Assembly (NCBI GenBank): GCA_003133645.1
Contig: PKYI01000200.1
Location: 1-64,000, forward strand
DNA from: Acidobacteriota bacterium
GTDB taxonomy: Bacteria; Acidobacteriota; Thermoanaerobaculia; Thermoanaerobaculales; Thermoanaerobaculaceae
Direction: 5' to 3'
Length of the DNA stretch: 64,000 nt
Each line of letters opens with the position of its first letter. Position 1 is the stretch's first letter. The notes beneath the pieces were generated by a model. That model had not been told where the DNA came from. It saw only the letters and a list, made by a program, of their open reading frames with translations, and searched no databases. The position numbers were made by a program, and so were the translations under genes. Positions 32,917 to 48,702 of this stretch are shown piece after piece.

Positions 32917-34395
32917 TCAGGCCGTCACCGACGCGGCCGGCAGCGTCACCAGGAAGCATGTCCCCCGCCCCGGCGTGCTCCGGACCTCGACCCGTCCACC
33001 GTGCTGCTCCGCCGCCGCCTTGACGATCGCGAGTCCGAGACCGGTCCCCTCGCTGCTGTGGCTGCGGGCGTTGGGGGACCGGTAGAACTCTTCGAAAACG
33101 CGCCCGAGGTCCGCCGCCGGGATGCCGATCCCGGTGTCTTCCACCCCGAGCTCGATCGCCCCGCCGCGCCGCTCGAGGCGAACTTCCACCTTTCCCCCGC
33201 GCGGCGTATAGCGGATCGCGTTGCCGACCAGGTTGCCGGCCAGCTCGCGTAGGGCGGCGCCGTCGCCGACGATCTTGGCGATCTCACCGGTGATGCGGAC
33301 GTTCAGCGTCAACCCGGCGCGATCGGCGGCCGGGCGTGCATCCTCGGCCACCTCGCATACCACCGCTGCCAGGTCAACCGGCGCCAGCTCGACCGCCAGC
33401 CTTCCCTCGCGTGCACGCGAGAGCGTCAACAGGTCGGCGGTCACCTGCGCAAGGTCGCCGGTCCGCGCCTCGATCCGCTGGATCAGCTCGACGGCCGGCG
33501 GGGGAAGCTCGCCCGCCACGCCGGCGAGCAGCGCGCTCATCGTCGTGCGCATGGTCCCCAGGGGGCCGCGCAGCTCGTGCGCAACCTTGCGCAGGTACTG
33601 CGACTTGGAACGCTCCGCCTGGCTCACCCGATCGAGTGCCGCGGCGAGGGTTTCCGCCTTGCGCGAGACCTCGAGCGAGAGCACGACCACTTCGCCTTCG
33701 CGCCGCCGCAGCCGGTCGGCGATCGTGCTGCCGATGTACGCCGAGAGGTAGAGGGTGGTCGCGAAGACCAGCAACTGCGCCGACACCACGGCCGGATCGC
33801 GAAACGCCGCCGGGGCCCAGGCGCCGCCCAGCGGCCAGTGGCGGACGAGGCCGAGGCCTTCGGAGGTCGCCACCACGGCGATCAGCGCCACGCTCCAGCT
33901 CGCGTGCACGAACGTCGCCTGGCGCGAGAACAGGATCGCGGCGATGATCACGTGAAAGATGAAGAAGTAGAGGAACGGGTTCTCGACCCCCCCGGAGAAG
34001 TGAAGCAGCACCGCCAGCAGCATCAGGTCGATCGCGACCTGGAGGTTCGCGAAGAGAACAGCCGGTCCGGCCGACCCGACATCGCCCGCCCCGCCCGGTG
34101 ACCCCGGTAGCAGGAAGCGGACGAGCGGCCGGGTCCACGACCATTCGCGGCGCACCTCGCCGGCGTGCAGCCTCCGCAGCCAGAGCCAGTAGAGCCCGTT
34201 GCTGAGCGCCAGCGCGGCGAACGTCAGGTACAGACGCCACAGCGGGAGGTGGACCGGGAAGACCCTGCGGGCCACCTCCACGAAGAGCACGACGCCGGCC
34301 ACGGCGAGCCAACGAAGGCGGATCAGCCACCCCAGCCGCTCGCCCAGCTCGGCGGAAACCGGCAGCGAGCTCGAGATCGATGCGGCCACGTCCAT
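32917..34395 (-). CDS. Membrane sensor histidine kinase with RegB-like GGxxNPF motif
   Basis: Several TMs with HFSGGVENPFLYFF; KVAHELRGPLGTMRT H-box; GHKL ATPase. Confidence 0.9.
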   Translation of the reverse strand: MDVAASISSSLPVSAELGERLGWLIRLRWLAVAGVVLFVEVARRVFPVHLPLWRLYLTFAALALSNGLYWLWLRRLHAGEVRREWSWTRPLVRFLLPGSPGGAGDVGSAGPAVLFANLQVAIDLMLLAVLLHFSGGVENPFLYFFIFHVIIAAILFSRQATFVHASWSVALIAVVATSEGLGLVRHWPLGGAWAPAAFRDPAVVSAQLLVFATTLYLSAYIGSTIADRLRRREGEVVVLSLEVSRKAETLAAALDRVSQAERSKSQYLRKVAHELRGPLGTMRTTMSALLAGVAGELPPPAVELIQRIEARTGDLAQVTADLLTLSRAREGRLAVELAPVDLAAVVCEVAEDARPAADRAGLTLNVRITGEIAKIVGDGAALRELAGNLVGNAIRYTPRGGKVEVRLERRGGAIELGVEDTGIGIPAADLGRVFEEFYRSPNARSHSSEGTGLGLAIVKAAAEQHGGRVEVRSTPGRGTCFLVTLPAASVTA

Positions 34396-34443
34396 CCGCC
34401 GCTACCCTCCCACGGTGGGTCCCCGGTCGGTCCTCGGCCGTCC

Positions 34444-34872
34444 TCAGCCCTTGTGAACCAGTTCGAGCACCCTGGCGACGACGCGCAACAGCTCGACCGG
34501 GGCCACCGGCTTGTCCAAGAACTCCTGGATCGGCAGGTACTCACCGGCACGATAGCTGCCGTCGCCGCTCTCAGGGTAGAAGCGGAGATCGGTCTTCGAG
34601 TGGATCGCCGAGACGATGACGATCGGCACCTCCCGGAAGTACGAACCGGGCTTTTGCCTCAAGTTCCAGACGAAGTGAAACCCCTCGGTGGCGTCCGGCA
34701 TCATCACGTCGAGCAGGATGAGGTCCGGCCTCTCGACCTCCACCGTGGCGATCCCCTCGGCGGGGCCGGCCGCGTCCACGACCCGATAGCCCTCCTTCTG
34801 CAGCACCAGACGCATCACGGCGACCAAGTCGCGGTCGTCGTCGACGATCAGGATCTTGGCCTTTTCGCTCAT
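34444..34872 (-). CDS. Single-domain response regulator
   Basis: KILIVDDDRDLVAVMRLVL...DLILLDVMMPD...FLDKPVAP; no output domain; overlaps the upstream hydrogenase gene by 4 nt. Confidence 0.9.
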   Translation of the reverse strand: MSEKAKILIVDDDRDLVAVMRLVLQKEGYRVVDAAGPAEGIATVEVERPDLILLDVMMPDATEGFHFVWNLRQKPGSYFREVPIVIVSAIHSKTDLRFYPESGDGSYRAGEYLPIQEFLDKPVAPVELLRVVARVLELVHKG

Positions 34873-35381
34873 CCGTGCGCCTCTTTCTGCAGTATCCCAC
34901 CCTCCGCAAGCTGGTCAAGCGACTCCTGCGTGAGGTGCTCCTCGGCCACTTGCTTCGGCACCAGGCCGAGCGCCAGCGCCACCCCATAAAGGATCGCCTC
35001 GGGTCGGGGCGGGCAGCCGGGCACGTAGAAGTCGACCGGGATCACCTTGTCGGCGCCGCCGAGGACGTTGTACGAGTCGAACCACGCGCCCCCGCCGCAG
35101 GCGCATGAGCCGATCGCGAACACCAGGCGCGGCTTCGGCACCGCCTCGAGCAGCCGCCTGAGCGCCGGCGCCACCTGACGGGTGACCGGCCCGCTTACAA
35201 CGACCGCGTCGGCGTGGCGCGGCGAGCCGACGAGCTTGATGCCGAAGCGCTCCGCGTCGTAGTAGGGGGTGAGGACGTTGATCACCTCGATATCGCAGCC
35301 GTTGCAGGCACCGGCGTTGGCGTGGTAGACCCAGAGGGCCTTGCCGAACGCCTTCTTGCACGCCTTCTCGAGAAACGCCAT
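34869..35381 (-). CDS. Group 4 [NiFe]-hydrogenase small subunit (HyfI/NuoB-like)
   Basis: NAGACNGCDIEVINVLTPYYDAERFG...GSCACGGGAWFDSYNVLGG...VPGCPPRPEAILYG. Confidence 0.9.
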   Translation of the reverse strand: MAFLEKACKKAFGKALWVYHANAGACNGCDIEVINVLTPYYDAERFGIKLVGSPRHADAVVVSGPVTRQVAPALRRLLEAVPKPRLVFAIGSCACGGGAWFDSYNVLGGADKVIPVDFYVPGCPPRPEAILYGVALALGLVPKQVAEEHLTQESLDQLAEGGILQKEAHG

Positions 35382-35383
35382 CC

Positions 35384-36898
35384 TCACCTCCCCAGCGTGG
35401 CCAGCACGTTCGCGGCACGATCGAGCAACGGGAACGTCAGCCGCGGAAACACCCCGAGAACCACGCATGCAACGGCCAGCACCACCATCGGCCCCCACAT
35501 CGTCGCCGGGACCTCGCGGGCCGCGACCGCGGTCGCGGGAGCGTGCCCCCAGAACACCGTCCGCGCCACCCGCAGCAGCACCACCATGGTCAGGAGGCCC
35601 GCGGCGATCGCGATCGCCAACGCCCACCACATTCCGGCCTGCGCCAGAGCAAGGTAGATTGTGAGCTTGCTCAGGAACCCGTTGAACGGCGGCAGCCCGG
35701 CGATCGCGAGCGTCCCGATCACGAAGCACGCGCTGGTGATCGGCATCCGGTCGCGCATCCCGGACAGCTCGCTGATCCGCCGTGTGCCGGTGGCGTAGGT
35801 CAACGCGCCGACGCACATGAACAGCAGCGCCTTGATCAGCGCGTGGTTGAGCAGGTGGAACAACCCGCCATAGCAGCCCAGGTAGGTACCCAGCCCGATG
35901 CCGACCACGACGTAGCCGATCTGGCTGACCGAGGAGTAGGCGAGCAGCCGCTTGAGGTCGTCCTGCGCCAGCGCCATGACGATACCCAGCACCATCGTGA
36001 ACACCCCGAGCGCCACCACGAACACCGCGAGCGTCGGCCAGCGCGGGTAGAAGATGCTCACCGTCCGCGCCAGCGCGTACACCGCCATCTTGATCATCAC
36101 GGCTGACAGCAGCACCGATATCGGCGTCGGCGCCTCGGCGTGCGCGTCTGGCAGCCAGGGGTGGAACGGCGCGATCCCCGCCTTGGTTCCGAAGCCCACG
36201 ACCAGGAAAGCTACCGCGATCAGCGCGGTCGCGGGCGGGATCAGGTGCGCGACGCCACGCACCTCGCTGATCAGCAATGCCTGGCCGCCGGTGAGCCGGT
36301 TGGTCGCCGCCGCCGCCGCGTAGGTAAGGACGCACCCGAAGAGCGCGAAGGTGATGCCGATCGTGAGGATCATGAGGTACTTGTAGCCGGCCTCGAGCGC
36401 CCGCTTGTCCCAGTGGAAGGCGACCAGGAGGCCCGAGGTCAGCGTGGTCGCTTCGACCGCGACGTACAGCATCACGATGTTGTTGGTGACGCACCCCCAC
36501 ACCATCGTCGCGATGAACCAGAGGAAGAGCCCGTAGAAGGTGGGCAGGCGCTGCGCGGCCGCCGCGCCGACCCGCGTCAGCAGGCCCGGCTGCTTGACGT
36601 AGCGCACCGAGTAAAGTGCCGTCAGCGTGCCGACGATGCCGATGGTCAGAACCAGCAGGACCGAGAGCCCGTCGACGCGCAGCTCGTTGCCCCAGCCCGT
36701 GAGCACCGCACCGTCCACAACGCGCCGCGCCATCTCGAGGCCCAACAGCGTCACGATCAGCGGCGCCGCGACGGCCAGGAATTGCGTAAGCCGGGCACCG
36801 AGCCACCGGCCGAAGAAGGCCAGCACGCCGGCGGCGAACGGCACCAGGAACGCCCACGCCGGCATGCTCGAAGCCATGGTTGCCACCTGCTCGCTCAT
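35384..36898 (-). CDS. HyfF-like proton-translocating antiporter subunit
   Basis: LLALVFG-type NuoL/M/N fold; GFGTKAGIAPFHPWLPDAHAEAPTPISVLLSAVMIKMAVY. Confidence 0.88.
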   Translation of the reverse strand: MSEQVATMASSMPAWAFLVPFAAGVLAFFGRWLGARLTQFLAVAAPLIVTLLGLEMARRVVDGAVLTGWGNELRVDGLSVLLVLTIGIVGTLTALYSVRYVKQPGLLTRVGAAAAQRLPTFYGLFLWFIATMVWGCVTNNIVMLYVAVEATTLTSGLLVAFHWDKRALEAGYKYLMILTIGITFALFGCVLTYAAAAATNRLTGGQALLISEVRGVAHLIPPATALIAVAFLVVGFGTKAGIAPFHPWLPDAHAEAPTPISVLLSAVMIKMAVYALARTVSIFYPRWPTLAVFVVALGVFTMVLGIVMALAQDDLKRLLAYSSVSQIGYVVVGIGLGTYLGCYGGLFHLLNHALIKALLFMCVGALTYATGTRRISELSGMRDRMPITSACFVIGTLAIAGLPPFNGFLSKLTIYLALAQAGMWWALAIAIAAGLLTMVVLLRVARTVFWGHAPATAVAAREVPATMWGPMVVLAVACVVLGVFPRLTFPLLDRAANVLATLGR

Positions 36899-36950: not shown

Positions 36951-37625
36951 CTAGCGCTGCAGCTCGCGCAGAGCGAACGTGTCGGTAGTGCCGAACTCCT
37001 TGCGCACCCCGGCGATCACGTACAGCAACAGGAAGACCGTGACGACGACCTCGGTGGCGACGCCAAACAATGTGGTCTCGGGCAGCTCGGGCGCAAGGCT
37101 CACCAGGCTCAGGTGCACACCGTTTTCAAGCAGGCACAGGCCGATCACCGTCTTGGTCGCGTCGCGGCGCGTCAGCACGCAGTAGAGGCCGAGCACGAAC
37201 ACCGTCGAGGCCACCGCCAGGTTGGTGCGGAACACCCCTTCCTGTGCGAGCGTCGTCGGGGCGAACAGCGCAACGTGACCATGAGTAAAGCGGTAGAAGC
37301 CGGTCATCAGCAGCGCCGCCACCACCACCGAGGGGCCAAAGCCGATCAGCGGCTTGATCTCGCGGTCCTCGCCATGGCCGATGAAGCGGAACAGGAACCA
37401 CGGCGTCAGCACCGCCTTGGTGATCAGCGCCACGGCCGCCCACCAGTAGAGCGACGGGTTGACCGCCGCGAAGCTGGCGAGCAGGCCGACGATCAGTAGC
37501 GCCTGCGCCGAGTACGCCATCGCCGCGAAGCGCAGGCGTCGCACCTCGACCGCGACGACCGAGGTGATCACCACCACCATCGAGAGCGTCTGGATCAGCC
37601 CGCCGTTGAGCCCCGCGGTGCTCAC
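36951..37625 (-). CDS. HyfE-like membrane subunit
   Basis: Hydrophobic protein with NuoK-like C-terminal part, conserved position between HyfF- and HyfH-like genes. Confidence 0.8.
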   Translation of the reverse strand: MSTAGLNGGLIQTLSMVVVITSVVAVEVRRLRFAAMAYSAQALLIVGLLASFAAVNPSLYWWAAVALITKAVLTPWFLFRFIGHGEDREIKPLIGFGPSVVVAALLMTGFYRFTHGHVALFAPTTLAQEGVFRTNLAVASTVFVLGLYCVLTRRDATKTVIGLCLLENGVHLSLVSLAPELPETTLFGVATEVVVTVFLLLYVIAGVRKEFGTTDTFALRELQR

Positions 37626-38071
37626 GATCTGCCTCCGTCACTGGTACGAAAACCCGTCCTGTCCATGCGGTCGAGCGGCGTCGGCGGCGTGTAGCAGCGG
37701 CCGCACCGCTGGCACGGACCCATGAACACCTCGAGCCGCATCACCATGTCGTCGCCGCGGTCGGTCGCGGTCTCGAACTGCTGGCTCATGGTGATCGCCT
37801 GCTCCGGACACACCTCCTCGCAGCGGCCGCAGTAGGTGCACCGCCGCCACTGGAACTCGAGCACGCGGAGGAGTTGGCCGGCGTCGCGTACCTGGATGAC
37901 GCCGGCCGGACAGACGTTGGCACAGCCGCCGCAGCCGAAGCAGCGGTCAGGATCCAGCGTGATCTTGCCGCGGAAGCCCGGAGCAGGATCGTGGGGCGCG
38001 AACGGATACGGCAGCGTCACTCGCCCCGCCCTGAAGCAGATCAGCGCCTCGCGCAGCTTGGCTGTCAGCAC
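37622..38071 (-). CDS. HyfH/NuoI-like ferredoxin subunit
   Basis: CFGCGGCANVCPAGVI and CTYCGRCEEVCPEQAI, plus C-terminal CQRCGRCY. Confidence 0.88.
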   Translation of the reverse strand: MLTAKLREALICFRAGRVTLPYPFAPHDPAPGFRGKITLDPDRCFGCGGCANVCPAGVIQVRDAGQLLRVLEFQWRRCTYCGRCEEVCPEQAITMSQQFETATDRGDDMVMRLEVFMGPCQRCGRCYTPPTPLDRMDRTGFRTSDGGRS

Positions 38072-38081
38072 GGATCGCCTC

Positions 38082-38999
38082 CTACATCCCGATCACGGCG
38101 AAGGCGAGGCCCGCGAGCGCAGAGAGCGCCACCCTCATGTAGTAGCCCATCGCCTGCTCGATCCGCAACCGAGGGTTGACCGCGTCGATCACCCCCACTA
38201 GGACGAGCACGAGCAGCGCCTTGACCAGCGTCAGCACGACGTCGAGCGGCACGATGCCGAGGTGCGGCCACGGCACGAACACCTGCACAAGCAGCAGCGC
38301 GAAGATCAACTGCTTGGCCCACAGCGCCCAGCGGAAGAGGGCCAGCCGCGGGCCGCTCTGCTCGATCAGCGGGCCGCCCATGATCTCCTGGTCCGCCTCG
38401 GGGATGTCGAACGGCAGCTTGCCGGCCTGCGCCTGCAGCGCGAGGAACAGGGCGACGGCGGCGATCGCCATGCTGATGGTCGGGCCGTGCTCGGCGTTCC
38501 AGGCGAGGATACCGCCGACCGAAAGCGTCCCCGCTTTGACCGCGCCGACCACCAGCGCCACCGCCAGAACCGGCTCGACCGAGAGCAGCATCATCATCTC
38601 GCGCGAGCCGCCGACCGCCGCGTACGGACTGCCGCTCGCGAAGGCGGTGAGAATCAGAGCCACCGCGCTGGTCGTCGCCACGTAAATCAGCACGATGAGG
38701 TCCCCGGCGAACCCCAACGGCGGCGCGGCGCCGAGCGGCACCAGCGTCGCCAGCAGCAGCACCGAGCCCAGCGAGAGGGCCGGGGCGAGCGCGTACGGCA
38801 GACCGCCGGTGGTGCGCAGGTCCTCCTTGCCGAGGAGCTTGAGCAGGTCGAGGTAGGGCTGGGTGAGCGGCGGCCCCTGACGCGAGTGGACGATCGCCTT
38901 GAGCTTGCGCATCACTCCCTCGGCCAGCGGCGAAAGCAGCAGCGCCACCGCCACGTTGAGCAGGGCGAGTGCGAGCGCGAGCAGCGGTGCGGTCGTCAT
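38082..38999 (-). CDS. HyfC/NuoH-like membrane anchor
   Basis: KAIVHSRQGPPLTQPYLDLLKLLGKE...LPFDIPEADQEIMGGPLIEQSG. Confidence 0.9.
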   Translation of the reverse strand: MTTAPLLALALALLNVAVALLLSPLAEGVMRKLKAIVHSRQGPPLTQPYLDLLKLLGKEDLRTTGGLPYALAPALSLGSVLLLATLVPLGAAPPLGFAGDLIVLIYVATTSAVALILTAFASGSPYAAVGGSREMMMLLSVEPVLAVALVVGAVKAGTLSVGGILAWNAEHGPTISMAIAAVALFLALQAQAGKLPFDIPEADQEIMGGPLIEQSGPRLALFRWALWAKQLIFALLLVQVFVPWPHLGIVPLDVVLTLVKALLVLVLVGVIDAVNPRLRIEQAMGYYMRVALSALAGLAFAVIGM

Positions 39000-40696
39000 C
39001 GCCGTCCTCCCCGGCGCGTCAGGTCGCGCGACATCGCGAGAAGCTCCTTGTGTGAGTAGACCCGGCGCGTCCGCGTCCGCACGTCGATCGCCTCGACCCG
39101 CTCGGTGCAGGAGAAGCACGGGTCGAGGCTGCCGAGCGTGATCGGAAAGTCGGCGATCGCGGCGTGATCGATCATTGCCGGCATCGCCTGCAGGTTCGGG
39201 TAGGTCGGCGCGCGCACCCGCCAGCGGTAGGGGCGATTGTCCCCGCCGGTCATGACGAAATGCACGGCCTCGCCGCGCGGCGCCTCGACCACCGAGATGC
39301 CGATCCGGTCGCGCGGAATCTCGTCCACGACCTCCACCAGCACCTCGCCGTCGGGGAGCCTGGCCAGGCCCTCGCGCACCTGCCGGATCGAGTCGAGCAG
39401 CTCCTCGACGCGGACCAACAGGCGCGACCAGGTGTCGCCCGCCTGTTGCGTGCACAGGCGCGGCGGCACCTCGTCGTAGGCGGCATACGGGTGATCGAGG
39501 CGCGCGTCGATCGGCACGCCGGAGGCACGCGCCGGCGGCCCAACCACGCATACCTGTCGCGCCCACTCGCCCGTCAACACCCCGACGTTCTTCGTCCGCG
39601 CAAGCAGTGTGGTGTCGCCGACAATCGCGTCGCGGACCGCGACCGACTCGCGCTCGACCTCGTCGACCACCTTGAGAACCTTCGGGACCACGGCGGCCGG
39701 CAGGTCCCGGCGCAGTCCGCCGATGGTGTTCATGCCGTAGGTCTTGCGGTTGCCGCTGATCTCCTCCGCGAGCCACATCACCGGCTCGCGCATGCGCCAC
39801 GTCTGCATCAGCACGGTGTCGAAGCCGAGGATGTGGCCGGCGATCCCGAGCCATAGCAGGTGCGAGTGGACCCGCTCGAGCTCGAGCATGATCGAGCGGA
39901 TGTAGCGGGCGCGCCGCGGGACCTCGATGCCGGCGGCCTTCTCCACCGCCTGGCAGTACGCGGTCGAGTGGATGAACCCGCAGATGCCGCAGATACGCTC
40001 GGCAAGGTAAGGGATCTCGTTGTAGGTGAGCACGCTTTCGCCGAGCTTCTCGATACCGCGGTGGTTGTAGAAGCCGCGATAGTCGCAGCCAACAACCGTC
40101 TCGCCCTCGACGAACAGCCGCCAGTACGATGGCTCCTCGAGTACCGGGAAGAACGGACCGATAGGCAGCACGCTGGCGCCCTCTGGCGGCTGCTTCGGGA
40201 CCGGCGCCACGCCCCCGGCCGCGGGCGGGCGGTAGTCGTAGGGGAAGTCGCGTCGCAGCGGGAAGAGGCCTTCCGGCCAGTCGTCGGCGAGCAGCAGGCG
40301 GCGCGGGTCGGGATGGCCGTCCGGCGTGACGCCGACCGCGTCGCGGCACTCCCGCTCCGCCCAGTTGGCACCCGGGACCAGCGACGTAATCGAGTCGACG
40401 TGCGGGTCATCGGGATCCGCCGCGCACTCGAGCACCACGAATAGGTGCTCGGCATCGAGCGAGAAGAGGTAGAGGACGCGATAGTCCGCCGTCAGCGGTC
40501 GGGTGTCGATCCCCACCGTGATCAGGAAGCGCGCCCGCAGCCGCAGCAGCTCCTCGGTCGCGCTACGGAGTTTCTCGGGGGCTACGACGAGGCGTAGCGT
40601 GTCGGGAGGTCCCTGCGACGCGACTCGCAGGCCTGCGCCGATCCTTCCAGCCACCGCCTCGTTCACCTGTGCCGCGACGCCTTGAACGTTCGCCAT
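38996..40696 (-). CDS. Group 4 [NiFe]-hydrogenase large subunit with fused NuoC-like domain (HyfG/HycE-like)
   Basis: L1 motif RICGICGFIHS, L2 motif DPCFSCTER, C-terminal extension VEAIDVRTRTRRVYSHKEL. Confidence 0.93.
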   Translation of the reverse strand: MANVQGVAAQVNEAVAGRIGAGLRVASQGPPDTLRLVVAPEKLRSATEELLRLRARFLITVGIDTRPLTADYRVLYLFSLDAEHLFVVLECAADPDDPHVDSITSLVPGANWAERECRDAVGVTPDGHPDPRRLLLADDWPEGLFPLRRDFPYDYRPPAAGGVAPVPKQPPEGASVLPIGPFFPVLEEPSYWRLFVEGETVVGCDYRGFYNHRGIEKLGESVLTYNEIPYLAERICGICGFIHSTAYCQAVEKAAGIEVPRRARYIRSIMLELERVHSHLLWLGIAGHILGFDTVLMQTWRMREPVMWLAEEISGNRKTYGMNTIGGLRRDLPAAVVPKVLKVVDEVERESVAVRDAIVGDTTLLARTKNVGVLTGEWARQVCVVGPPARASGVPIDARLDHPYAAYDEVPPRLCTQQAGDTWSRLLVRVEELLDSIRQVREGLARLPDGEVLVEVVDEIPRDRIGISVVEAPRGEAVHFVMTGGDNRPYRWRVRAPTYPNLQAMPAMIDHAAIADFPITLGSLDPCFSCTERVEAIDVRTRTRRVYSHKELLAMSRDLTRRGGRR

Positions 40697-40706
40697 CGCC
40701 CGCTCC

Positions 40707-42713
40707 TCACCCGACCAGCCCGAGCACGATCGCCACCACGGCGACCGCACCGACGACGATCCATAGCAGGTACACCTGCGGCACGCCGACGTGGCTGCGG
40801 CTCACCGCGCCCGCCGACCGCTCGACCAGCCGGGCGACCGGCTGGTAGGCCCACGAGTCGACATCGAAGGCGCGCCGGACGCCGGCAGGGAACGCCGGCA
40901 CCCGCCAGCGGATGCGCGGGTAGATCCCTTCGAAGGCGTGCTTGAACGGCAGGTAGAAGCTCGACGCCGGGTAGCGCACGGTGGCCGCGGCATGCTCCTC
41001 GCCGCAGGTCCATACCGCGACCTCGCGGGTGCCGGCGCCGCCGGCGCGCTGCAGGCCGTAGGCGACGAGCGCGAGCACGACCATCCCGCCCACCAGCGCC
41101 AGCGGCGACCACACCGCGAGCGCGACTCCGCCGCCCGCGACCGACAGGCCCCACGGCCCGCCGAGCAGCTCGGAGGCGCTCGGCACCGTAATCGGGACGC
41201 TTGCCGCCACCGCCTCGCGGATGAAGCGCAGCGGCCAGAACGGGAGCACGCCGAGCAGCACGCAGAGCGCTGCCAGCACGATCTGCGCCGTCGCCATGGT
41301 GGCCGGCACCTCGCTCACCTGGCGCTCCGGGTTTGGCTCCCCGAGGAAAACGGCCCCGAGCACCTTCAGGAACGACGCCAGGGTGGCGAGCGAGATGAAC
41401 ATCGCCACCAAGCCGAGGATCAGGAAGAGCGGCTGCCTCATCCCCGCCAGCAAGCAGGTGGCGACGATCAGCCACTTGCTGGCGAACCCGTTGAGCGGCG
41501 GCACGCCGGCGATCGCCAGCGATGCCACCGTGGACGACCCCGCCGTCAGCGGCATCGCGGCGGCCAGCCCGCCGAGCCGGTTCATGTCGCGCTCGCCGGT
41601 GCGGTACAGCACGGCGCCGGCGCCGAGGAACAGGCACGCCTTGAAGCAGGCATGGTTGGCGGCGTGGAACAGTGCGCCCATGATCGCGAGCGCGCCCAGG
41701 GTCGGCGCCGACCGCAGACAGGCGATGCCGACACCGAGACCGAGGCAGATGTAGCCGATCTGGCCGATGGTGTGGAACGCCATCAGCCGCTTGCTGTCGG
41801 TCTGGCCCAGCGCCGTCAGGGTGCCGACGAACAGCGATGCCGTACCCGCCAGTGCGATTGCGATCCCCCACCCGACCGCGGCGGCCGAGGCCGGCAGCAC
41901 CGCACAGAAGAAACGCACCAATCCGTAGATCCCCATCTTCACCAGGGCGCCCGAGAGAGCCGCGCTCACCCCAGAAGGCGCCACCGGGTGGGCGTCGGGC
42001 AGCCAGTCGCCCATCGGCAGCACGCCGGCCTTGGTGGCGAAGCCGATGAAGAGCAGCCCGAGCACCGTGTGCGCCAGGACCGGCCGCGTGACGAGCAGTT
42101 GCGCGAGCGCCGCCAGCAGATCGCCGAAGTGGAACGAGCCGCACTCCCGCCAGAGCAACAGCGCCGCCACGACCATGCACAGCGTCGCCGCGTGGGTGAT
42201 CACGAAGTACTTCAGCCCGGCGCGTTGGCTTGCGGCGTTCTCCCGCTCGAAGGTGACCAGGAAGAACGAGGTCAGCGTCATGAGCTCCCAGCACACCAGG
42301 AAGAAGAGGAAGTCGGAGACCACCAGCACACCGACGATCGCCGCGAAGAACACCAGCAGGATGGGATAGAACTTCGCCAGCGTGTTGCCCGCGAAGTGTG
42401 TCATGTAGTCGACCGAGTAGAGCGTGGCGACCACGGCGATCGTCGCGACGATCGCCAGGAAGAACGCCGACAGTGGGTCGACCACCACCGACAGCCGCGC
42501 CCCAAGGCCCGGCAGCACGAGCACGGTCGCCTCGCCCTCCGCCGGCGACGAGAACGCCCGCAGCACGACGACCCAGATGGCGATGGCGGCGGCCGCCACG
42601 AACGCCGTGCTCACCCACCCGGCGAGCCTGCGCCAGCGCGCCAGCGCCAGGCTCGCGACTGCGCCGACCAGCAGCACGGTGATCGCGACGGCAAGCAGCT
42701 CCGCGATGCTCAT
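40707..42713 (-). CDS. NuoL/HyfB-like antiporter subunit
   Basis: FIGFATKAGVLPMGDWLPDAHPVAPSGVSAALSGALVKMGIYG. Confidence 0.9.
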   Translation of the reverse strand: MSIAELLAVAITVLLVGAVASLALARWRRLAGWVSTAFVAAAAIAIWVVVLRAFSSPAEGEATVLVLPGLGARLSVVVDPLSAFFLAIVATIAVVATLYSVDYMTHFAGNTLAKFYPILLVFFAAIVGVLVVSDFLFFLVCWELMTLTSFFLVTFERENAASQRAGLKYFVITHAATLCMVVAALLLWRECGSFHFGDLLAALAQLLVTRPVLAHTVLGLLFIGFATKAGVLPMGDWLPDAHPVAPSGVSAALSGALVKMGIYGLVRFFCAVLPASAAAVGWGIAIALAGTASLFVGTLTALGQTDSKRLMAFHTIGQIGYICLGLGVGIACLRSAPTLGALAIMGALFHAANHACFKACLFLGAGAVLYRTGERDMNRLGGLAAAMPLTAGSSTVASLAIAGVPPLNGFASKWLIVATCLLAGMRQPLFLILGLVAMFISLATLASFLKVLGAVFLGEPNPERQVSEVPATMATAQIVLAALCVLLGVLPFWPLRFIREAVAASVPITVPSASELLGGPWGLSVAGGGVALAVWSPLALVGGMVVLALVAYGLQRAGGAGTREVAVWTCGEEHAAATVRYPASSFYLPFKHAFEGIYPRIRWRVPAFPAGVRRAFDVDSWAYQPVARLVERSAGAVSRSHVGVPQVYLLWIVVGAVAVVAIVLGLVG

Positions 42714-42717
42714 AGCC

Positions 42718-44181
42718 TCACCTTCCGATCCACTGCACGAGCGGGATGCCGATCGCCGGGGCGACCAGGCAGCCGAGCATCAGCACGATGAGCACGGCCG
42801 ACATCGCCGGCGGCGGGTCCGAGTTGACGCACGCCACCGGCGTGGTCTTGCCGAGGAACACCTTCTGCGCCACGTGCAGTAGCCAGGCGAACGAGATCAG
42901 GCTCTCGACGAGTACCAGCGTCACCACGACCGGCCCGATCGCGCCGGGAAGCCGCATCGCGCCCGCCACGATCATGAACTTGCTCCAGAAGCAGCCGAAC
43001 GGGGGTACGCCAGCGACTGCCATCACGCCGATAAAGAACGCCGTCGCGGTGAGCGGCATCGTGCGCGCCACCCCGGCGAGCGCAGAGATGCTGCGCGAGC
43101 CCGTCATGTACGCCACCGCCCCGACGCACAGGAACAGCGTCGCCTTGCCGAAGCCGTGGCAGAGGATGTGCAGCATTGCACCGCGCAAAGCGGTGACCGA
43201 GCCGAGCGCCCCGAGCGCGACGCCGAGCATCACATAACCGAGATTGGCGATCGTCGAGTAGGCGAGCAGGCGCTTGAGGTCGTCCTGGATGAAGTAGTAC
43301 GACAGCGCGATGAACATCGTCAGGAGCGCCATCGCCCCCAGTAGCAGCGCCACCTTGGGGGGCACCGCCGAAGTCGAGATGACGCTGCGCGCCATCAGGT
43401 AGACGCCCGCCTTGACCATGGCCGCGGCGTGCAGGTACGCCGAGATCGGCGTCGGCGCCTCCATCGCGTCGGGCAGCCAGGTGTGGAATGGCACCTGGGC
43501 GGCCTTTGCCCAGGCGGCGATCATCAGCATCACGAACACCGCGCTGCGCCAGTGGCCGGGGAGCTGCCCCAGCGCCGCAAACTCGAACGAGCCGGTCTTG
43601 GCGAACAGCACGCAGATGGCGCCGAGGAAGAACAGCCCGCCGGCGGCGGTCATCACCAGCGCCTTGAACCCGGCGGCGAGGCTCTTCGGGGTTCCGTAGT
43701 AGGAGATCAGCGCCCACGAGCAAACCGTCGTCATCTCCCAGAAAATGAATAGCTGGAGGAAGTTGGGCGAGATCGCCACGCCCACCATGCTGGCCAGGAA
43801 GAGGAGCAGCCAGAAGTAGTAGCGGCCCTGCGCCTCCGGACCCTCCGGGTGATCCCGATTGGCCGTTGACAGGTAGCGCGTCGAGTACAGCACGGTGAGG
43901 AAGCCGATCACCGTCACCACCAGCAGCAGGATACAGCCGACCGGGTCGAGCAGCACGCCGAATACCGGCGCGGGCAGCGTCCCGGCCAGCCAGGGCAGGT
44001 CGCCGAGCGCGACCCGATAGCTGACACCGTAGCTGGCGAGGCAGCACCACACCGCGAGCACGGCTACCAGTGCCGCCGCCGTTGCCGCGACCCAGCGGGC
44101 GAGCGCTCCTTTCACCACCGCTGCGACCGCAGCAGCCAGCGCCGGCAGGAGGACCATCAGCACGAGCATCCAGGTCAACAT
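42718..44181 (-). CDS. NuoM/HyfD-like antiporter subunit
   Basis: AAWAKAAQVPFHTWLPDAMEAPTPISAYLHAAAMVKAGVYLMAR. Confidence 0.9.
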   Translation of the reverse strand: MLTWMLVLMVLLPALAAAVAAVVKGALARWVAATAAALVAVLAVWCCLASYGVSYRVALGDLPWLAGTLPAPVFGVLLDPVGCILLLVVTVIGFLTVLYSTRYLSTANRDHPEGPEAQGRYYFWLLLFLASMVGVAISPNFLQLFIFWEMTTVCSWALISYYGTPKSLAAGFKALVMTAAGGLFFLGAICVLFAKTGSFEFAALGQLPGHWRSAVFVMLMIAAWAKAAQVPFHTWLPDAMEAPTPISAYLHAAAMVKAGVYLMARSVISTSAVPPKVALLLGAMALLTMFIALSYYFIQDDLKRLLAYSTIANLGYVMLGVALGALGSVTALRGAMLHILCHGFGKATLFLCVGAVAYMTGSRSISALAGVARTMPLTATAFFIGVMAVAGVPPFGCFWSKFMIVAGAMRLPGAIGPVVVTLVLVESLISFAWLLHVAQKVFLGKTTPVACVNSDPPPAMSAVLIVLMLGCLVAPAIGIPLVQWIGR

Positions 44182-44687
44182 GACGCCGCCTTCTTTGCCC
44201 CTGTCGGGCCACACAGCGTGCCGCGCCGCGGCGGCAGCACGTCGATCAGCAGTTCGGCCAGGCTCGCCACGCTCGCAGCGACTTCGGGGCTCGGCGGCAT
44301 CGCGAGCTCGGTGTGCCGGGGCTGCACCGCGAGCACCGCGACGCGCGCGCCGGTCTCCCGCTGCACGATCTCCATCAGCATGGAAAGCGGCATGCGGTGG
44401 GTCGACGGCATGTACGACGACACCTCGCCGGCGCCCAGCAGCGCCGCGGCGCCCGGCGCCTCGCCGAGGTCGACCGCGTCGAGAAACAGCACCGCCTCTG
44501 GCGAGCCGGCGATGACGGTGCAGACGAAGCTCTCCGGCACGTCCTCTGCGTCGATGACGATCACGCCCACACGTCCGGCGAGCCGGCGGGCGAGCAGCGG
44601 GCCGAAGGCGTCGTCGCCGCGCATCGGGTTGCCGATGCCGACGATCGTGACGGCGCCGGAGAGAAGCTCCGCGAGCTCGGCGCGCAT
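44175..44687 (-). CDS. Hydrogenase maturation endopeptidase (HycI-like)
   Basis: VTIVGIGNPMRGDDAFGPLLARRL...VIDAEDVPESF. Confidence 0.9.
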   Translation of the reverse strand: MRAELAELLSGAVTIVGIGNPMRGDDAFGPLLARRLAGRVGVIVIDAEDVPESFVCTVIAGSPEAVLFLDAVDLGEAPGAAALLGAGEVSSYMPSTHRMPLSMLMEIVQRETGARVAVLAVQPRHTELAMPPSPEVAASVASLAELLIDVLPPRRGTLCGPTGAKKAASC

Positions 44688-44689
44688 GG

Positions 44690-45511
44690 TCACTCGGTCA
44701 TCTCCCGGATCTGCCGGTAGGTGAAGACCGGACCGTCGCGGCAGACGTAGCGGTGGCCGATGCAGCAGTGGTTGCACTTGCCGACCCCGCACTGCATCAT
44801 CCGCTCCAGCGTCGAGATCACGGAGTCGGGGCTGAACCCCCGCATCAGCAGGTCCTGGACGACGAACTTGATCATGACCGGCGGCCCGCAGACGTAGGCC
44901 AGCGTGGTGGCGGGCCTGAGCTCGGTCCTGTCGAAGAGGGTCGGCACCATGCCGACGTTACCGGTCCAGCCGGCCTCGCCGCGGTCGACAGTGACGTGGA
45001 GCTCGACGTCCCCCCGCCTGGCCCACTCGTCCAGCTCACCCTTGTAGACGAGATCGGTGGGCGTGCGGGCGCCATAGAGGATCGTCACCTTGTCGAAGCG
45101 GTCGCGCTCGTCGAGCACGTTCCAGATCAGCCCGCGCAGCGGCGGCAGCCCGATGCCGCCGCCAATGAACAGCAGGTCCTTGCCCGTGGCCGCGGCCACA
45201 TCGAAACCGTTGCCGCACGGCCCGCGCAGGCCAACTTCGTCGCCGGCCGCCAACTTGTGCATCGCATCGGTCAGCAGGCCGGTGCGGCGCACCGTGGTCT
45301 GGATGCACTCCGCCCGGGTGGGGCTCGAGGCGAAGCAGAACGGCGCCTCGCCGATGCCGAACACCGACAGCTCCATGAACTGCCCCGGCACGAACGTGAA
45401 GTCACGCCGCTCGCCGCCGTCGCGCAGGACGAGGTCGAACGTCTTCGTGTCCGGCGTCTCGTCGCGGACGGCGGCGATCCGCGCCACACGCGGCAGGAAC
45501 AGGTTATCCAT
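44690..45511 (-). CDS. Sulfhydrogenase gamma / PyrK-type FAD, NAD(P), 2Fe-2S subunit (HydG-like)
   Basis: FVPGQFMELSVFGIGEAPF...LLFIGGGIGLPPLRGLIW...LERMMQCGVGKCNHCCIGHRYVC. Confidence 0.9.
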   Translation of the reverse strand: MDNLFLPRVARIAAVRDETPDTKTFDLVLRDGGERRDFTFVPGQFMELSVFGIGEAPFCFASSPTRAECIQTTVRRTGLLTDAMHKLAAGDEVGLRGPCGNGFDVAAATGKDLLFIGGGIGLPPLRGLIWNVLDERDRFDKVTILYGARTPTDLVYKGELDEWARRGDVELHVTVDRGEAGWTGNVGMVPTLFDRTELRPATTLAYVCGPPVMIKFVVQDLLMRGFSPDSVISTLERMMQCGVGKCNHCCIGHRYVCRDGPVFTYRQIREMTE

Positions 45512-46556
45512 GCCACGCTCCTTTGCGAATTGCGGCCACGACGGCCGGCATGTCGGTGGTCCCCAGGCAGACTTTCACGCAGCGGCCGCAGCCGACGCAG
45601 CCCACCGCGCCGTCGCGCCGGAAGTACTGGGCGCTCACCTTGTGGAAGAAGCGCCGCTTGACCCGCTCCCGGTGCGCCTCGCGGGGGTTGTGGCCGGACG
45701 CCTCGCGGGTGAAGGCCCGGAACTGGCACGAGTCCCAGGTGCGGCAGCGGACCCAGTGCCCATCGCGCCCCTGGTCCTTCACCGAAAAGCAGTAGCAGGT
45801 GGGGCAGACGAAGTTGCAGGCGCCGCACTCGAGGCACGTACCGGCGATCTCGTCCCACAGCTCGGCGCTCACCCGGCCGACCGACACGCGCCGCATCGCC
45901 GAGGCGAAGTGGCACGTCTCGGGGCCGAACGCGCGCTTCGCCGCCTCTTCCAGCTCGTGCCGCCGCGCCACCTCCCCGGCCTCCGCCGTCCGGAACAGGT
46001 CGGCCGACGGCTCGACCAGACGACCACCCTTCTCGCTGCCCACCTCGGCGAGGAAGCGGTCGCCAAGATCGGTGAGCTGGACGTCGAACGACTCGGCCAG
46101 GAACGGCCCGGCGTCACAGCAGATGCAGAAGCCGAGCGGGCAGGGCGTGATGCACGCCACGCTCACCGAGGTCAGCGCGGCGGCACGCCGCAGGTACGCC
46201 GTGTCGGCGAGGTCGTACGCGTGCATCCGCGTGAGGAAGTCGATCCCCTTGACGTCGCAACTGTGCACCCCGAAAAGCACCCGCGGCCGCTCGTCGTAGA
46301 CCGGCTCGACCACGAGCCCGTCGGCGCCGCGGCTGATCGTGACGAGCGGGTCCGTCTGCGGCAGCACCACCTGTTTCGGCGGGAACAACGGGTTGTCGCT
46401 GCCCCACTGAACCTCGACAGGAGAGGAGATTTTGCGGAAGATCACGTCGCCGGCCTGGGCCGCCGTTGGCGCGACAACCTCGGCGTTCTCGATGAGGCGG
46501 CCGATCCACTCGCCCGTCCTCTCCTTGCCGATCGTTCGTGCCGAGCTCACCTGCAT
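45504..46556 (-). CDS. Sulfhydrogenase beta-type 4Fe-4S dicluster subunit (HydB-like)
   Basis: FGVHSCDVKGIDFLTRMHAYDLADTAYLRR...CLECGACNFVCPTCYCFSV...CVGCGRCVKVCLG. Confidence 0.88.
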   Translation of the reverse strand: MQVSSARTIGKERTGEWIGRLIENAEVVAPTAAQAGDVIFRKISSPVEVQWGSDNPLFPPKQVVLPQTDPLVTISRGADGLVVEPVYDERPRVLFGVHSCDVKGIDFLTRMHAYDLADTAYLRRAAALTSVSVACITPCPLGFCICCDAGPFLAESFDVQLTDLGDRFLAEVGSEKGGRLVEPSADLFRTAEAGEVARRHELEEAAKRAFGPETCHFASAMRRVSVGRVSAELWDEIAGTCLECGACNFVCPTCYCFSVKDQGRDGHWVRCRTWDSCQFRAFTREASGHNPREAHRERVKRRFFHKVSAQYFRRDGAVGCVGCGRCVKVCLGTTDMPAVVAAIRKGAWHG

Positions 46557-46575
46557 CTGCGCCCCCGAAGTCTTT

Positions 46576-48486
46576 TCAGGCCCGTTCGACGGCCACGCTG
46601 GTGACGCCGTGCCCACCCATCACCGGCGCGAGCGCGTCGCGGAACGCGAACGGCACCACGACCACGCCGGCCGCCAGGTCGGCGCGCATCACCGCCGGCG
46701 CCACCGCCTCCCCGCCCGCCGACTTGAGCCTCACCGGCCAGCCCTGGCGCACGCCGAGCCGGTCCATCGCCTCCTTCGACAGCTCCACGAAACCGCCCGG
46801 GAACAGCTTGCGCTGCGCGGCCGAGTCGCGGCACAACGTCGGGGAGTAGCGCACGAGCGGATCACTGCCCCAGTCGAGCACACCGTCCCAGACGGCCACG
46901 GATGGCGCCGGTTTGATCGGCTCGCACGGCGCCAGCGGACCGAGCGATGGGCGCCGGCCGCCGTTTCGCTCGGCTCTCGGCACCACCCGGGCCTCGTCGA
47001 CCTCCCGCCACCGCGCGCCAATGTCGGGAGGCATCGCCCGTGCGATCTCCCGCCGCACCTCCTCGGCGCCGTGGTACTCCGTAGCCGGCCCGAGGCGACC
47101 GAGCATCGCCGCGAGCACGGCCCACCCGGGCCGCGCCTTTCCGGGCGGTCTGACGGCCGCGCGAACCTGCCGCACGCGCCCGTCAAGTCCGGTAACGGTG
47201 CCGTCGTTCTCGGCGAAGCTGGCGATCGGCAGCACCACGGTGGCCAGTTCCAGCGCCGGCGTCGCAAAAGCGTCCAGCAACACCACGCACTCCATCCGCC
47301 TGAGCGCCTCGCGCGCGAGCGCGCCGGCCGGCATCACCGCAGTTGGATCCTCCGCTACGATCACCACGCCTCGCGCCACGGTCAGCATCTGGGCGGCGTC
47401 CAGGCCCGTCTCACGCACGGGTGGCACGCCCCAGACACCCTCAAGGCGGCTGCCGGCCCCGTCGTCGGACAGCGGTGCGAACCCCGGCAGGAAGTTCGGC
47501 GACGCGCCGACCTCGCAGGCGCCCCGCAGGTTGCCGCGTGCCGGCAGGATCAGCAGAGGACTTCCGTCTCGATCGAGGTGGCCGGTCGCCGCCGCCAGCG
47601 TCGCGAGGTCGCCGGCGAGGCGCCGCAACTCGGCCGCGTCCGCCACCAGCGGGGCGACCACGATGGCAGCCCGCTGGGCCTGCGCGTACCACCCCGCGGC
47701 GCGCGCCACCGCCTCGCTCACCTCGGCCTCGGCGAGGCTGCGGCGCAGGGCGTCGAAGGAGGCGCCGGCCGCGACGATCGTCGCAGTGTCGAGCCGGCCG
47801 CCCGCAAGTGCCGCCGCCACCAGCGCGAACGTCACCGCGCGCTCGCGCCCGGGCGTGGAGGCGATCGACAGTGCCGCCAGGCTCGTCATCTGGGAGGCGA
47901 CCGCGCCGATCGTCACCAGCCGGCATCCCGCCTTCCGGGCGCGGACGATCGCGCCCGCGACCTGCGGGTGGGTCACGGCCACGTCGCCCTCGACGAGAAT
48001 GATCACCTCGCAGTGCTCGAGGTCGGCCACCGTACCGCTCCCGGCGTGCCGCCCGGTGACGTCGTGGAGGCCGTCGAGCAGCGGCTGGTAGGTCGCCGTC
48101 AGGCACGAGACGACGTGGGGGGTCTGCAGCGCTCCCCGCGCCAGCCTCACCGCGAGGTAGTTCTCCTCGTTGGTGGCGCGCGCGGAACCGAGCACACCAA
48201 TCGTCCGGCCGGCGCGCCGCGTCGCGACCAGGCTGTCGGCTGCCGCTTCGAGAGCCGTCTCCCACGACACAGGACGCATTCGCCCCTCGTGGCGCATCAG
48301 CGGCTCGGTGAGGCGCTCGCCCCACGCCGGCGCTTCATGGCTTCCCCAACCGCGGGCGCACAGCCTCCCCCGCGACACCGGGTCACCCTCGCTGGGGATG
48401 ACGCCCTCCGTCCTTCCGTCTTGTACATGCAGGTAGAAACCGCAACCGCAGGGGCAAAACGGACAGGTGGTGAGGACGGGGTCCAC
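46576..48486 (-). CDS. Formate-dehydrogenase-like molybdopterin oxidoreductase with altered active-site residues
   Basis: CPFCPCGCGFYL...GRLCARG 4Fe-4S domain; VLGSARATNEENYLAVRLAR; LPARGNLRGACEVG; C-terminal MGD-binding domain. GTG start chosen; ORF extends to 48633. Confidence 0.85.
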   Translation of the reverse strand: MDPVLTTCPFCPCGCGFYLHVQDGRTEGVIPSEGDPVSRGRLCARGWGSHEAPAWGERLTEPLMRHEGRMRPVSWETALEAAADSLVATRRAGRTIGVLGSARATNEENYLAVRLARGALQTPHVVSCLTATYQPLLDGLHDVTGRHAGSGTVADLEHCEVIILVEGDVAVTHPQVAGAIVRARKAGCRLVTIGAVASQMTSLAALSIASTPGRERAVTFALVAAALAGGRLDTATIVAAGASFDALRRSLAEAEVSEAVARAAGWYAQAQRAAIVVAPLVADAAELRRLAGDLATLAAATGHLDRDGSPLLILPARGNLRGACEVGASPNFLPGFAPLSDDGAGSRLEGVWGVPPVRETGLDAAQMLTVARGVVIVAEDPTAVMPAGALAREALRRMECVVLLDAFATPALELATVVLPIASFAENDGTVTGLDGRVRQVRAAVRPPGKARPGWAVLAAMLGRLGPATEYHGAEEVRREIARAMPPDIGARWREVDEARVVPRAERNGGRRPSLGPLAPCEPIKPAPSVAVWDGVLDWGSDPLVRYSPTLCRDSAAQRKLFPGGFVELSKEAMDRLGVRQGWPVRLKSAGGEAVAPAVMRADLAAGVVVVPFAFRDALAPVMGGHGVTSVAVERA

Positions 48487-48702
48487 TGCCTTCCCCTCCC
48501 GACCGGTCACCTCACCGGCGTCCGCGGATTGCGTGCGCGCCGGCGCACGCTCGCTCCCGGCGTTCTTGTGACCTCGTTCCCCGAAGCAGTGCCCAGAGGC
48601 TACAGCCGGCGCGAGGCAAGGGTCCGGTGGCACCCCAAACCGATGGGGGCCTTCAGTCTCGGACTTCGCGCCGTCTGCCTCTCATGTGAAAATCCTAACA
48701 AT

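Follow-up and report, generated by a model that had tools for sequence, protein, structure and literature searches.

Among described systems, formate hydrogenlyase-2/hydrogenase-4 (Hyf, group 4a) of E. coli and Pectobacterium (PMC7384014) shares with the locus reported here the subunits HyfB, C, D, E, F, G, H and I, a HycI-type protease and intact NiFe ligands. In the present locus, however, the FdhF-like subunit lacks the molybdenum (Mo) ligand, HydB/HydG-type subunits take the place of HyfA/HycB, and two-component regulator genes are found where Hyf has HyfR. The nearest solved relatives of these HydB/HydG-type subunits (beta and gamma) are HydB and HydG of Pyrococcus sulfhydrogenase 1, with which they have flavin, NAD(P) and Fe-S motifs in common. 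Sulfhydrogenase 1 is a soluble group 3b enzyme with neither a membrane arm nor an FdhF-like subunit, while the present system has both.

Domains of FdhF fold that contain no Mo are already known. NuoG (Nqo3/NDUFS1) of complex I has the formate dehydrogenase (FDH) fold, no Mo ligand and an N7-type [4Fe-4S] site, and so resembles the FdhF-like subunit described here, part of a probable NAD(P)H-linked relative of complex I, which differs in lacking the N-terminal [2Fe-2S]/[4Fe-4S] domain, in beginning directly at the CxxCxxxC domain, and in having HydB/HydG rather than NuoE/NuoF as partners. A paper on the E. coli formate hydrogenlyase places cluster N7 of complex I off the electron path (PMC9474812), and NuoG is thereby a precedent for an inactive FdhF-like domain. 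The FdhF-like domain of StnC, from the Stn transhydrogenase, is also stated to be catalytically inactive (PMC10482914) and, as is probable here, is accompanied by Fe-S clusters in a complex linked to a nicotinamide cofactor, NADPH in its case. StnC, however, also carries a fused GltD-like domain and belongs to a soluble, bifurcating complex that has no hydrogenase.

A similar group 4 cluster has also been published. In Saganbacteria RX5A a cluster described as "enigmatic" combines hydrogenase and Mrp-like subunits with asrA, asrB and a molybdopterin oxidoreductase that its authors could not classify as an FDH; by this description it is similar to the present cluster, from which it differs in also having cooF (PMC6349859). 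HydDB lists groups 4f and 4g without a determined role (PMC5037454). In the literature that we searched, with most subscription journals outside its scope, we found no description of active-site loss in such clusters.

Operon and gene products

The window, by which we mean the whole 64,000-nucleotide stretch of DNA that was analysed, contains a 14-gene operon on the minus strand, encoding in order FdhA', beta, gamma, HycI, HyfD-B-G-C-H-E-F-I, a response regulator and a kinase. The first gene, for the FdhF-like subunit FdhA', lies in an open reading frame at 46576-48633 and probably starts at a GTG at 48486, preceded by a GGGAGGGG stretch. This start gives a 636-residue product and agrees with the limits of 46576-48486 that had been proposed from the sequence before; all residue numbers below are counted from it. 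By name the best whole-protein family match is formate dehydrogenase alpha (E 1.7e-84), but with 284 bits the protein stays well below the curated TIGR01591 cut-off of 666, and for NuoG it reaches 119 of the 470 bits needed. An AlphaFold model made with 15 relatives as input (pLDDT 86, pTM 0.90) has an intact fold of the FDH type, with TM-scores by query length of 0.86-0.88 to 7vw6, 1fdi and 7z0t and a TM-score of 0.72 to mycobacterial NuoG.

The next two minus-strand genes encode a HydB/AsrA-like beta subunit with a 4Fe-4S dicluster (45504..46616, likely start near 46556), whose sole PDB match is sulfhydrogenase 1 beta, and a HydG/AsrB-like gamma subunit (44690..45511), best matched in the PDB by sulfhydrogenase 1 gamma. 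The gamma subunit retains FAD motifs, NAD(P) motifs (GGGIGLPP, CGPP) and a four-cysteine [2Fe-2S] motif. Homology and these motifs point to a sulfhydrogenase-type module, though one that does not reach the NCBIfam equivalog cut-offs. The HycI-type maturation protease follows (44175..44792, start probably inside the frame), and then the antiporter-type membrane subunits HyfD (42718..44214, which exceeds its NCBIfam cut-off, 511 against 430) and HyfB (40707..42713).

The HyfG/HycE-like [NiFe] large subunit, with a NuoC domain (38996..40750), has E. coli HycE as its nearest solved structure (E 6e-129). As both of its NiFe-binding cysteine pairs, RICGIC and DPCFSC, are intact, it belongs to a hydrogenase and we rejected assignment to the ligand-less Ehr complexes. 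Downstream of it the minus strand encodes a HyfC/NuoH-like membrane subunit (38082..38999), a HyfH-like ferredoxin subunit (37622..38071), a HyfE-like membrane subunit (36951..37625), a HyfF-like antiporter-type subunit (35384..36898) and a HyfI/NuoB-like small subunit (34869..35381). The operon has both features of a group 4 [NiFe] hydrogenase, the two CxxC pairs that bind NiFe and the complex-I-like membrane partners. A response regulator (34444..34872) and a sensor histidine kinase (32917..34395) end it; this pair (32917-34872) trails the operon in both of the families described below and could place it under H2 or redox control.

Two families of FdhA'

The gene order is conserved in 10 genomes, six from Acidobacteriota including that of the window and four reached as Gemmatimonadota, in operons that are full or truncated by contig ends (loci L036 to L041 and L128 to L130). 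A contig scan with the single FdhA' protein gave only two loci. A profile search across 396 genomes of the window's phylum, Acidobacteriota, found a second, divergent family. In the eight genomes of this family that were examined (L085-L092) the order is FdhA'-HydB-HydG-(HycI)-HyfB-HyfG-HyfC-HyfH-HyfI, followed by the response regulator and histidine kinase genes. This family has fewer membrane subunits than the first, and its FdhA' shares 28-32% identity with that of the window.

No version of first-family FdhA' with selenocysteine (Sec) was found, as the TGA codons flagged there (matches to L009/L010) fall outside these genes. A Sec FDH of about 32% identity in genome G038 (L017/L053/L054) was considered as an active version in the same operon and rejected, because no HydB, HydG or Hyf genes were found adjoining it. 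In genome G428 a canonical Cys FDH stands between HydG- and HydB-like genes (L127:8990-12809), with no hydrogenase genes within the 20 kb read, and the beta/gamma module may therefore also serve working FDHs. A second HydB/HydG-like pair lies directly upstream of the operon at L039:1963-3590 and L040:208-3999; the L040 pair is followed by a weak match to a hydrogenase large subunit, possibly of a group 3b hydrogenase.

Loss of molybdenum-site residues

The original prediction placed Thr-Tyr of FdhA' at the Sec140-His141 position of FdhF, and several independent alignments agree. Thr132 (codon ACC, 48091-48093) and Tyr133 (TAC, 48088-48090), together at 48088..48093 on the minus strand, pair with Sec/Cys-His in phmmer alignments to FdhF (1aa6), HDCR FdhF and F420-FDH without a local gap, and also in multiple alignments. 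In tblastn searches six FDHs from relatives have their in-frame Sec codon, TGA, exactly at Thr132, and their TGA-His falls on Thr-Tyr. The replacement of the conserved lysine by arginine was likewise borne out, FdhF Lys44 corresponding to Arg45 in a multiple alignment (C43-A44-R45, 48352..48360, minus strand). The later arginine had been thought to be retained, but in two multiple alignments FdhF Arg333 falls on Pro315 (P315-A316-R317, 47536..47544, minus strand), and a match to Arg317 would need a two-residue gap. Proline occupies this position in 10/10 first-family orthologues, where the invariant Arg317 aligns with FdhF Gln335.

The 18 FdhA' proteins encoded beside group 4 hydrogenases were compared with 24 canonical FDH sequences from the same genome collections, and the two sets differ by more than chance would give. 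Lys44, His141 and Arg333 are each present in 24/24 canonical FDHs and the Mo-ligand Cys/Sec in 23/24, while among the FdhA' proteins Lys44 and Arg333 are found in none (Arg stands for Lys44 in all), the ligand Cys in one and His141 in four, all from the second family; in the first family the His141 position is mainly Tyr. At the ligand position the 10 first-family proteins have Thr in five and otherwise Ala, Ser, Gly, Glu or Cys; the eight of the second family have Gly (five), Trp (two) or His. The Arg333 position in the second family is Thr, Val, Ala or Pro. In all 18 proteins the Asn of the pterin motif GSN is replaced by Asp and the Asp of DPR is gone. The first family retains 29 of 72 FDH-invariant columns, the second 34.

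The iron-sulfur site shows the opposite pattern. All four cysteines of the [4Fe-4S] motif (CxxCxxxC...C) are present in 18/18 proteins, the first three being Cys 8, 11 and 15 in the window's CPFCPCGC (48442..48465, minus strand) and the fourth Cys43. Conservation of the cluster segment stays at the 98th-99th percentile. Positions within five residues of the ligand, by contrast, rank at the 90th percentile in canonical FDHs but only at the 45th and the 31st in the two FdhA' families. Two orthologues that are 84% identical have Thr and Ala respectively at the ligand position, and variation of this kind would not be expected of a catalytic ligand. Judged from these residues the Mo site of FdhA' is dead throughout the family. 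Of the residues and motifs expected of an FdhF-type Mo/W FDH, the window's FdhA' has the [4Fe-4S] motif but neither the ligand, nor His141/Lys44/Arg333, nor GSN/DPR.

That FdhA' is an ordinary FDH, with Thr-Tyr an artefact of alignment, is suggested by the name of its best family match; we consider it very improbable, as several independent alignments put Thr132 at the Sec/Cys position, no other Cys fits there, and the score is far below the family cut-off. Still less credible is a decayed pseudogene or an assembly error. The window does come from a draft MAG of 216 contigs, but the reading frame is uninterrupted, and 17 other genomes with a conserved operon context show these losses too. Two single proteins deviate from their groups. 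L130 (G540:C57), of the first family, has Cys at the ligand position without Lys44, His141, Arg333 or the pterin motifs, which could be chance or a remnant, and L013 (G042:C119:2240-4174), an otherwise canonical FDH-like protein, has Gly for Sec/Cys ahead of the catalytic His (RVGHAP).

A missing Cys/Sec ligand alone does not exclude Mo from a protein of the DMSO-reductase superfamily, and arsenite oxidase has no protein ligand to Mo. FdhA' could on this model bind Mo or W through an unusual protein ligand, or through none, and act on another substrate. The tolerance of the superfamily, the intact fold and the Mo-cofactor genes found in some genomes of both families are consistent with such an enzyme. 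The variable ligand position (T/A/S/G/E/C), its change between close orthologues, the loss of the pterin-binding Asn and Asp in 18/18 proteins and the five first-family genomes in which MoaC, MoeA and MoaA were not detected argue against it, and we regard it as improbable.

These five are among the six Acidobacteriota genomes of the first family and are 89-96% complete; the sixth, G010, has all three genes, and MoaA is also present in the relatives G001, G011 and G013-G016. FdhD, which E. coli requires for FDH activity, was found in 3/18 family genomes and HypD in 15/18; the MAG of the window, which is 89% complete, gave no HypD match. In G033, FdhA' is the only PF00384 protein at E<=1e-15. 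Such absences need care, as cofactor genes can cluster and their joint absence is therefore not independent evidence. FdhD was not found in two control genomes that have canonical FDHs (G050, G428), and G192 has a canonical Cys FDH (L162:7816-10530) in a genome where MoaA, MoaC, MoeA and FdhD were not found. We therefore no longer take the absence of cofactor genes as proof of a Mo-free FdhA', and treat the pattern as supporting but not decisive. The MAG of the window also encodes a PsrA/PhsA-like protein (G000:C127:8213-9904; L001, L051) that begins in twin-arginine fashion and in which Cys is the apparent Mo ligand (SFAQCRGPR); MoaA, MoaC and MoeA were not found in this MAG.

When 54 proteins were placed in an unrooted maximum-likelihood tree, a branch with good support set each FdhA' family apart from the rest (100/100 and 100/97). 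The groups that lack the Mo ligand, including NuoG-like proteins encoded beside a NuoF-like gene, all stand together against the canonical FDHs and a nitrate-reductase-like outgroup (100/98). The tree allows a single loss of the ligand but does not prove it, since it is unrooted, the ligand-less stems are long and many rows deviate in composition. A third ligand-less family consists of NuoG-like proteins, with Gly in 8/8 at the ligand position (L043:6328-13271 and, in the window's genome, G000:C127:24614-26047, L049). Their genes adjoin NuoF-like and GltD-like genes, an arrangement that resembles Stn/Nfn-type complexes.

A probable relay role for FdhA' and its consequences

We consider it probable that FdhA' is a Mo-free, FdhF-like relay or scaffold subunit, carrying only its [4Fe-4S] cluster, and that the group 4 [NiFe] hydrogenase to which it belongs is energy-converting and linked to NAD(P)H. 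The gamma subunit would exchange electrons with NAD(P)H through its FAD and [2Fe-2S], and these would pass by way of the predicted [4Fe-4S] clusters of beta and then that of FdhA', and onward through HyfH and HyfI to the NiFe site of HyfG, with their flow coupled to ion movement through HyfB/C/D/E/F. These proteins would form one physical complex with FdhA' on its electron path. The potentials of NADPH and H2 are near -370 mV and, at 1 bar, -414 mV, so that release of H2 would be favourable only when H2 is low, and the reverse, H2 uptake that yields NAD(P)H, is just as plausible. FdhA' does not appear to supply the catalytic FDH subunit that a formate hydrogenlyase has.

The expectation that the protein does not oxidise formate and is structural or electron-relaying is well supported by the family-wide loss of catalytic residues and pterin motifs, by a ligand position that is free to vary, by the retained [4Fe-4S] site and by the neighbouring NAD(P)H/flavin input module. 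The third option raised at the time, action on another substrate, fares worst, as a catalytic metal site is unlikely to tolerate T/A/S/G/E/C as ligand. The Cys of L130 and the His kept in four second-family members count against a Mo-free FdhA'.

The main rival to the relay is a purely structural relic, in which the cluster would lie off the electron path as N7 does in complex I and the HydB-like subunit would pass electrons directly to HyfH/HyfI. Among the electron-transfer, catalytic and membrane subunits of the first family, conservation is lowest in FdhA', with a mean identity of 48.8%, equal to that of the protease, against 77.7% for HydG, 77.3% for HyfI and 69.6% for HyfG. That FdhA' evolves more quickly than its electron-transfer and catalytic partners accords with the Mo-free relay, but poor overall conservation would fit a passive scaffold too. 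The beta subunit of sulfhydrogenase serves its small subunit without an FdhF-like partner, and N7 of NuoG has been described as off-pathway (PMC9474812). The four invariant cluster cysteines and the near-maximal conservation of the segment around them speak against a relic, which we judge unlikely.

A bolder and less probable reading makes these operons a kind of NAD(P)H-linked energy-converting hydrogenase that has so far gone unrecognised. In it a catalytic subunit of FdhF type would have become a Mo-free relay like NuoG, and the system would be a present-day counterpart, or even a relation, of the step in which a hydrogenase complex gained complex I's NADH-input arm.

Annotation by name labels such genes formate dehydrogenase and their clusters formate hydrogenlyase. 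When H2 and formate exchange is modelled on that basis, Acidobacteriota and Gemmatimonadota would be credited with a formate activity that is probably absent. If the Saganbacteria cluster is the same, the loss of the Mo site would be a concrete answer to a published puzzle, that of a group 4 cluster linked to asrAB whose molybdopterin subunit defied classification (PMC6349859). Two bacterial phyla share the present arrangement, which recalls the reuse of such a protein by complex I. It may offer a natural and testable example in which a subunit of FdhF fold turned into a Mo-free relay beside a working hydrogenase, which bears on how complex I gained NuoG (discussed in PMC9474812).
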